DNA of 64,000 nt. It comes from Deltaproteobacteria bacterium (GTDB lineage: Bacteria; Myxococcota_A; UBA796; GCA-2862545). Position numbers and translations under genes: made by a program. Every line of letters begins with the position of its first letter. Positions within the stretch are counted from its first letter, which is position 1. Shown piece after piece: positions 29,816 to 31,464 of the stretch. The notes under the pieces were generated by a model. The model was not told where the DNA came from and made no database searches. It worked only from the letters and a program-made list of their open reading frames with translations. The stretch lies in NCBI GenBank assembly GCA_006226595.1, contig SBGP01000095.1:62001-126000 (forward strand), written 5' to 3'.

Positions 29816-29910
29816 GCTGGCTCAGCACGACCGCCGATGATTCGACACAGAAAAACCCCGCTTTCTTGTTGCCGTGTGACTGGGGTTCGCTTACCCTCTG
29901 GATGTTCCCT

Positions 29911-29924
29911 GGGCGTGCGCGCCC
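29911..29924 (+). promoter_or_regulatory. Leader hairpin of the 33-aa ORF
   Basis: GGGCG-TGCG-CGCCC forms a perfect 5-bp stem with a 4-base loop, 14 bases before the SD of the small ORF at 29950. A weak promoter-like pair, TTGCCG (29869) and TACCCT (29892) with 17-base spacing, lies upstream. Confidence 0.35.
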
Positions 29925-29949
29925 GACCTGTCCACCGCGGAGGTCTCCC

Positions 29950-30051
29950 ATGACCTGCAACATCTGCGAAAAGCACCCCAGAAGCTCTGTGAAGCAGCCG
30001 GCCGTGTACGCGGTGCGCTTTGGCGGTCTGGACGACGAGGTCCCTCGGTAG
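29950..30051 (+). CDS. Very small protein, 33 residues, C-x2-C-x2-H
   Basis: A 33-residue ORF starting MTCNICEKHPRSSVKQ and ending VRFGGLDDEVPR. GGAGG lies six bases before the ATG, a textbook position, and a strong intrinsic terminator follows 26 bases after the stop, so this is a compact transcription unit. Cys3, Cys6 and His9 could form half of a small zinc site. The part AVRFGGLDD is reminiscent of TVRYGRMER in the next small ORF. Function unknown. Confidence 0.55.
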   Translation: MTCNICEKHPRSSVKQPAVYAVRFGGLDDEVPR

Positions 30052-30076
30052 GTTCGACGAAAGGTTCGACCCGCCG

Positions 30077-30105
30077 AGGCCTCCGCGATTCGCGGGGGCC
30101 TTTTT
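30077..30105 (+). terminator. Strong rho-independent terminator
   Basis: AGGCCTCCGCG pairs with CGCGGGGGCCT (11 base pairs including one G-T wobble) around the loop ATT, and the 3' arm runs into five T. It ends the 33-aa ORF transcript. Confidence 0.88.
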
Positions 30106-30151
30106 CGTTGTCGCACCTGGCGCTGAAAGCACGCTGACAACCGATTGAACG

Positions 30152-30191
30152 CCTGTCGAGACGAACCACACATCGCTGTGGCGTGGACAGG
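30152..30191 (+). ncRNA. Nested stem-loop, candidate structured RNA
   Basis: CCTGTC (30152-30157) pairs with GACAGG (30186-30191), enclosing CCACA/TGTGG (30166-30170 and 30177-30181). The interior loops are AC/GA rich. It sits in the 349-base gap between the terminator and the 72-aa ORF, which otherwise holds only GCCCGTACGGGC (30324-30335) and the leader hairpin. Strand and function are not established. Confidence 0.35.
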
Positions 30192-30356
30192 TCTGTGTTG
30201 AATTTGGTGCGACATATGGGGATTCACCGAGAAGAACGCCAGTGGTGCAAGAAGCCATTCTCTCCTCTCCCGCTGGCCTCGGATCGGGACGCCCCGCGTC
30301 GCTGTTGTTGATTGTTGAAGATGGCCCGTACGGGCTTGTTGTTGAGTCGTCGAGGT

Positions 30357-30380
30357 CCCCCCGGCAGCCATGCCGGGGGG
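30357..30380 (+). promoter_or_regulatory. Perfect 10-bp hairpin before the 72-aa ORF
   Basis: CCCCCCGGCA and TGCCGGGGGG form a perfect stem around GCCA, nine bases before the SD (GGAGG, 30390-30394). It is too stable to be chance-level in a leader and could be an attenuator, a stability element, or a terminator without T-run. Confidence 0.5.
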
Positions 30381-30400
30381 CCACTTCCCGGAGGTGCGCG

Positions 30401-30619
30401 ATGCGCATCCTGCACGTTCCCCGCCACGAGCGGGTGGCTACGGTTCGCTACGGCCGCATGGAGCGCTTCGTCGAGGCGCCGGTTCGCGGAGGTCTCGACC
30501 CGTGGCGCCTCGCGGTCCCCGTGACCGCGGAGCCGCGCGCCGAGGGCGACGAGGAGAAGGACTCCAGCTCCGACCAGGTGACAGCGGATCGGGGGGAGCA
30601 ACCGATCCGCGCTGCCTGA
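30401..30619 (+). CDS. Small acidic/basic protein, 72 residues
   Basis: A 72-residue ORF starting MRILHVPRHERVATVRYGRM; GGAGG is six bases before the ATG, exactly as in the 33-aa ORF upstream. The first 45 residues look folded (alternating strands, FVEAPVRGGLDPWRLAVPV), and the rest is a charged tail (EGDEEKDSSSDQ). No signal peptide or membrane segment. It might be a paralogue or functional partner of the 33-aa ORF. Function unknown. Confidence 0.5.
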   Translation: MRILHVPRHERVATVRYGRMERFVEAPVRGGLDPWRLAVPVTAEPRAEGDEEKDSSSDQVTADRGEQPIRAA

Positions 30620-30660: not shown

Positions 30661-31191
30661 TCAGCGCGGCGGGGGCGGGGGTCCTGGCAGTGCCTCCTTC
30701 GGCGGCGGCGGGCCCTTGGGCGGCGGTGCAAAGGGCTTGCCGTGCACCGCGCGGTCCGCGAGGGCCATCACCTGCTCGGGGTTCTCCCCCGCGCCGAGAA
30801 CTACCCAGCGTCCGCCGTGCGACACGAGCACCGCGTGTACCGCGTCGACCTGGCGACCATCGCCGGCCACGACCCCAGCCCGCACGATCCACGCGGGCCC
30901 CTCGGTGTGCTTGGCCAGCGTGTCCGGATCGGGCACGAGGCGCCAACCCTCGCTCTTCGCCTGGCCGGCCACGGCCTCACCCGACAGGCCGCTGCCACCG
31001 ACGAGGTTGTGGTCCCAGCCCTCCGGGTGCCACGCGGCCTTGAACCGCGGGATGTCGCGGCTCGCGATGGCCTCGGCCATCTCGTGGAACGGGGCCAGCT
31101 GCGGCGCGGGGGCAGGCGCTGCCGGCGGCGGCCCGGGCGGTGCCGGCGGCGGGGCCGCGACGGCCTGGAGTGCGAGCCACAGGGCGATCAT
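30661..31191 (-). CDS. Exported Pro-rich protein
   Basis: A 176-residue protein with a short signal peptide (MIALWLALQAVAA) and Pro/Ala-rich segments at both ends (PPPAPPGPPPAAPAPAP; the C-terminus ends in PPPPPR). The central 110 residues look like a small alpha+beta fold (AEAIASRDIPRFKAAWHPEGW, AVLVSHGGRWVVLGAG) in the style of SnoaL/NTF2-like domains. Its start overlaps the stop of the stand-alone LysR HTH by four bases, so it is translated from the same mRNA. Function unknown. Confidence 0.6.
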   Translation of the reverse strand: MIALWLALQAVAAPPPAPPGPPPAAPAPAPQLAPFHEMAEAIASRDIPRFKAAWHPEGWDHNLVGGSGLSGEAVAGQAKSEGWRLVPDPDTLAKHTEGPAWIVRAGVVAGDGRQVDAVHAVLVSHGGRWVVLGAGENPEQVMALADRAVHGKPFAPPPKGPPPPKEALPGPPPPPR

Positions 31192-31445
31192 GGGTCCTCC
31201 ACATGGGTGCGCAGCCGGTCGACGGCGGCGAGGATCTGGCGGGCCTCGGCGACGACGCGCTCCCCCGCGGGAGTCGGACGCATGCCGCGGGGCAGACGCT
31301 CGAAGAGCACGGTGCCGAGCTCGTGCTCGAGGGCCTGGAGGCGCCGGGTCAGCGGCGGCTGGGAGATGTGCAGCCGACGCGCCGCGCGCACGAGTGCGCC
31401 CTCTTCGGCAATGGCGACCACGGTCTCGAGCTGTTCCAGGGACAT
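31188..31445 (-). CDS. Stand-alone LysR-type HTH protein
   Basis: An 85-residue protein consisting only of the LysR winged-HTH: MSLEQLETVVAIAEEGAL, then AARRLHISQPPLTRRLQALE and LFERLPRGMRPTPAGE, ending shortly after the linker helix. The effector-binding domain (about 200 residues in normal LysR proteins) is absent in every frame downstream, where instead the exported Pro-rich gene begins with a 4-base overlap. It could still bind DNA as a dimer through the linker helix, or be a remnant. The intact HTH sequence argues that it is still under selection. Confidence 0.75.
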   Translation of the reverse strand: MSLEQLETVVAIAEEGALVRAARRLHISQPPLTRRLQALEHELGTVLFERLPRGMRPTPAGERVVAEARQILAAVDRLRTHVEDP

Positions 31446-31464
31446 GCGGCCATCATGCCATGCG

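Follow-up and report, generated by a model that had tools for sequence, protein, structure and literature searches.

The interval at positions 29816-30619 of the window, by which we mean the whole stretch of 64,000 nucleotides analyzed here from a 7.2 Mb Myxococcota genome assembly, is most likely a reduced copy of a slipin locus (probability roughly 0.7). Our sister comparison was made with G001, the single other genome of the same genus in our genome set (two genomes in all). Judged from the sequences, a 72-residue open reading frame (ORF2), the C-terminus of a smaller upstream frame (ORF1) and the loop of one leader hairpin have homologs at the G001 slipin locus, and their order is common to both genomes. 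Reduction of such a locus explains ORF2 and the order of the parts, but not the fixity of the hairpin loop. An earlier note on this DNA had proposed a small regulatory unit with structured leaders that was not tied to a known family. This compact unit stands to the extent that the ORF1 C-terminus, its terminator, one hairpin and the start of ORF2 recur in G001 in this order, but the lack of a family does not, since ORF2 represents the start of a slipin. The features of the interval are as follows, with fold z-scores computed against dinucleotide shuffles:

29869-29897, + strand: possible ORF1 promoter, TTGCCG-N17-TACCCT, a weak candidate predicted from sequence

29911-29924, + strand: small GC hairpin GGGCG-TGCG-CGCCC ahead of ORF1; z = +0.15, ordinary for its composition

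29950-30051, + strand: ORF1, 33 residues, MTCNICEKHPRSSVKQPAVYAVRFGGLDDEVPR; its C-terminal 24 residues and stop codon are matched in G001

30076-30105, + strand: intrinsic terminator closing ORF1, a 12-pair stem (30076-30102) plus U tract; z = -2.7

30152-30191, + strand: nested stem-loop; z = -1.6, no G001 counterpart in the alignment

30238-30277, + strand: conserved leader hairpin, stem GCCAGTGG/CCGCTGGC, loop TGCAAGAAGCCATTCTCTCCTCTC

30324-30335, + strand: palindrome GCCCGTACGGGC, not seen in the G001 alignment

30357-30380, + strand: 10-bp hairpin CCCCCCGGCA-GCCA-TGCCGGGGGG directly before the Shine-Dalgarno sequence of ORF2; z = -2.0, absent in G001

30401-30619, + strand: ORF2, 72 residues, of which 1-46 correspond to a slipin N-terminus and 47-72 are unrelated, with the remaining ~315 slipin residues absent

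Over residues 1-46, ORF2 shares 57% identity with the start of a slipin of 361 residues in G001 (E = 4.9e-11; E = 1.5e-9 in the reverse search), and this G001 protein matches Band_7 (PF01145) at residues 137-300 with an E-value of 7.7e-20. A Pfam search of ORF2 itself gave no match, and because the Band_7 (SPFH) domain is missing we consider ORF2 to be a truncated slipin and probably a relic. No slipin similarity was found past residue 46 and no slipin remnant directly downstream. When the interval was compared to the G001 locus by blastn, only two stretches were significant, one of which comprises codons 1-22 of ORF2 (E = 3e-10). The window genome additionally encodes a full-length slipin on another contig (C25) that is 73% identical to the one of G001.

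It seems rather improbable that ORF2 is instead a working mini-slipin whose N-terminal domain binds or competes with the full-length protein and whose translation is controlled by the leader hairpin. A full-length slipin partner is available in the same genome, and the frame of ORF2 is open and has its own Shine-Dalgarno sequence: as described in the earlier note, both ORFs show GGAGG followed by six bases and then ATG. Furthermore, the indels between ORF2 and the G001 gene are in frame, and the pairwise dN/dS of 0.28 together with a third-position share of 11/22 among ORF2's own changes suggests that some constraint at the protein level is possible. However, these 22 lineage-specific changes over 41 comparable codons compare to only 6 in the G001 slipin, so that ORF2 has evolved faster than the full gene, and two residues that are invariant in an alignment of eight family members (G27 and H29) have been lost, both as expected for a relic. 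The unrelated tail also argues against a working mini-slipin, as does the lack of any stand-alone relative of ORF2 among the 58 genomes searched. In our reading, ORF2 is a gene that has been truncated and is now under relaxed constraint, though it may retain some residual function.

The architecture of the G001 locus suggests what the window copy may once have looked like. In G001, the order is ORF1, terminator, T-arm, conserved core, a tRNA-Val(CAC)-like gene, a CTGAAAA hairpin, the fixed-loop hairpin and the slipin, while the window has only ORF1, terminator, fixed-loop hairpin and slipin N-terminus, with a spacing between terminator and hairpin that is ~265 nt shorter than in G001. Both full-length slipins of the genus are preceded by a tRNA gene 250-400 nt upstream, and a tRNA scan of the window found none. 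The intact form, as in G001, would thus run from the small ORF1 via an intrinsic terminator and a structured leader RNA to the slipin, with a leader composed of tRNA and tRNA-like parts followed by the fixed-loop hairpin and a slipin composed of its N-terminal domain and Band_7 domain. We infer that the difference between the two loci reflects a loss on the side of the window copy, whose leader would have been shortened by ~265 nt and would have lost the tRNA-like parts, and whose slipin would have lost its Band_7 part. What would be left is ORF1, presumably made from a short transcript of its own, with its terminator, the fixed-loop hairpin as a present or past cis element for slipin expression, and a 72-residue N-terminal fragment that is more likely a relic in decay than a functional mini-protein.

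The surroundings of the two loci differ. Synteny with G001 via the gene upstream of ORF1 was ruled out since its counterpart lies on another contig of G001 with other genes next to it. These differing neighbors indicate either a relocation of the unit in one of the lineages or its presence in more than one copy. Either locus might derive from the other, and this speaks against the inferred loss in the window copy. A LysR-type gene is found downstream of both loci and was not counted as synteny because this family is common. At 31191-31450 of the window (- strand), an ORF of ~85 residues comprises, by inspection, the LysR-type N-terminal DNA-binding region only (MSLEQLETVVAIAEEGALVRAARRLHISQPPLTRRLQALEHEL...), so that the truncated slipin has another truncated gene nearby. 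Comparing the loci by tblastx returned many meaningless short matches from GC-rich sequence, and the result was discarded.

Of the secondary structures listed in the earlier note, the two hairpins at 29911-29924 and 30357-30380 are indeed perfect, and the nested stem-loop and palindrome are present as described. Nevertheless, the terminator is the only one of these named stems with a G001 counterpart, and most of the listed hairpins are lineage-specific or near chance. The whole leader (30106-30400) has a fold z-score of -1.8. Rfam covariance models gave no match in the window at gathering threshold, and the matches for its leader, located on the terminator and the opposite strand, did not rise above chance level (E 0.14-2.5). 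The earlier note had named missing conservation of stems and ORFs in relatives as what would refute it. Since the order of the unit and some of its parts recur in G001, the proposal passes this comparison in part: order, ORF1 C-terminus and terminator are kept, but most of the listed stems are without counterpart.

The one leader hairpin that is shared, at 30238-30277, had been overlooked previously. Its stem arms (30238-30245 with 30270-30277) enclose a 24-base loop containing AAGAAGCCATTCTCTCCTCTC that is nearly unchanged in G001 (one base indel), where a stem GCACGG/CCGTGC encloses the loop TGAAGAAGCCATTCTCTCCTCTC, and most of the surrounding sequence has changed. In the blastn comparison, 28/29 bases match around AAGAAGCCATTCTCTCCTCTCCCG (window 30249-30272; E = 5e-7), and in either genome the block is found ~130-155 nt upstream of the start codon. 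The stems of 8 pairs (window) and 6 pairs (G001) differ in sequence yet retain their pairing, including three pairs, counted from the loop, that have changed on both sides and are still paired. When 21-base blocks were drawn at random, 1.2% (window) and 4.9% (G001) were closed by stems this long; the two figures are not independent because the inner pairs belong to the conserved block. Apart from these two genomes, the block was not found in 379 Myxococcota genomes (≤2 mismatches), and it was likewise missing in the remaining genomes of the order (≤3 mismatches), in viral contigs and in 80 slipin leaders of other species. The loop sequence CUCUCCUCU could pair with the Shine-Dalgarno sequence in both genomes, but this pairing is no evidence by itself because any Shine-Dalgarno sequence would fit. 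Tentatively, the hairpin might be an undescribed cis-acting slipin RNA element of the genus, with a conserved partner—a protein, an RNA in trans, or the Shine-Dalgarno sequence—that recognizes its fixed 24-nt loop, and it might still control the short slipin-derived protein of the window species, though we regard this as unlikely.

On the strength of its aligned codons, ORF1 is a real, conserved small ORF. Because the end of the G001 contig falls within ORF1, with 75 nt left up to and including the stop codon, only the C-terminal part is comparable; there, G001 PRPILCSPATLVDNHGSFDDEAPR and its stop align without gaps to the ORF1 end PRSSVKQPAVYAVRFGGLDDEVPR and its stop over 24 codons. The BLOSUM62 score of this alignment is 48, compared to a maximum of 24 among 22,590 stop-anchored control stretches (0/22,590 as high). 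No relatives of ORF1 were found outside the genus; a search for a wider family with a degenerate C-terminus pattern gave 3 further, chance-like matches in 63 genomes and 4 with a reversed control. The possible promoter at 29869-29897 was not reported by a stricter consensus scan, and the sequence TTCGCTTACCC at 29886-29896 recurs on contig C25, ahead of the leader of the full-length slipin. The GC-rich 12-pair stem and U tract at 30076-30105 bear out the strong intrinsic terminator that had been described after the first ORF. Three terminator-like matches were found versus 0.5 expected, with the ORF1 terminator alone having a long, 12-pair stem, and the ORF1 counterpart of G001 is likewise followed by a terminator, which has the same role but another stem.

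The common order of ORF1, terminator, leader hairpin and ORF2 start in both genomes would also fit a dedicated small regulatory unit of a leader RNA and two small proteins without known family, as envisaged originally. We consider this very unlikely given that ORF2 is the start of a slipin, that conservation does not extend to most of the named stems, and that the two peptides are unrelated: the short pattern that they were said to share is not borne out by BLASTP, which gives no alignment at E ≤ 100. Similarly doubtful is attenuation, with ORF1 as a leader peptide and ribosome behavior at it setting read-through of the terminator into the slipin leader. In its favor, both genomes have a short ORF and, 25 nt later, a strong terminator ahead of the slipin leader, but ORF1 has no run of a single amino acid that could serve as regulatory codons, no antiterminator fold appears in single minimum-energy folds, and the terminator follows the stop codon as in an ordinary small gene.

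The reduced slipin locus can be placed next to slipin loci from 80 species of many phyla that we used as a comparison set. A T-loop sequence is found ≤600 nt upstream in 72/80 of these loci, often together with tRNA gene arrays, and no T-arm or tRNA was found within the same distance upstream of ORF2 in the window. At least 20/80 loci carry a module in circularly permuted order (T arm - acceptor - short loop - acceptor - D arm). Two such modules that were tested match the Rfam family YrlA (RF02553; E ~4e-6) with a score of 35.9 versus a gathering score of 69, and because these matches fall below the gathering score, Y-RNA-like elements beside slipins are probably under-annotated. Permuted modules lie 250-600 nt upstream of the slipin at loci L065, L076, L092, L106, L120, L122, L124, L127, L129, L137, L138, L141, L143, and others.

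Some other leaders share additional small elements. The element CGGTGCG - hairpin - CGTATGCCG recurs just before the tRNA or tRNA-like part at L067, L103, L112, L105, and L130, and it has a Myxococcota form, GAGCGGCG...GCCGTCCCGCGTG, in slipin leaders L034-L041, L059, and L060. Rfam reported only tRNA in the leaders scanned (Myxococcota, L103, and L112). A small hairpin with a CTGAAA loop and varying stems (CTGC/GCAG, AGCC/GGCT, CCAG/CTGG) directly follows the tRNA-like gene in the Myxococcota loci L034, L035, L037, and L038; L037 belongs to G046, a genome of the same order as the window genome.

If the interval is a reduced slipin locus, an apparent orphan regulatory unit becomes a known gene present as a truncated copy, and slipin loci gain a small, sharply conserved leader hairpin that is open to direct testing. 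Compared to slipin/stomatin-like proteins (Band_7, PF01145), ORF2 resembles the bacterial slipin N-terminal domain over its first 46 residues (57% identity) but lacks the entire domain that defines the family. Compared to YrlA (RF02553), slipin leaders in other species carry modules of T arm, acceptor and D arm, whereas the window leader has no such module; these tRNA mimics ahead of RNA-repair slipins bear on the role of slipins in RNA repair. In Anabaena, the repressor TrcR has the slipin gene alr0740, rtcB, and a tRNA operon among its listed targets (PMC10272220), and in Salmonella, Y RNAs form part of the rtc operon, which is responsive to tRNA fragments (PMC7790460). Compared to such Rtc RNA-repair loci, neither RtcB nor RtcR adjoins the interval, and RtcB of the window genome is found on contig C8 with an apparent divergent RtcR and a sigma-54 type promoter (both assigned by inspection). 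In contrast, slipins of the same subfamily in other bacteria have RtcR, RtcA, or RtcB (translations inspected by eye, no profile search) and tRNA genes among their neighbors.
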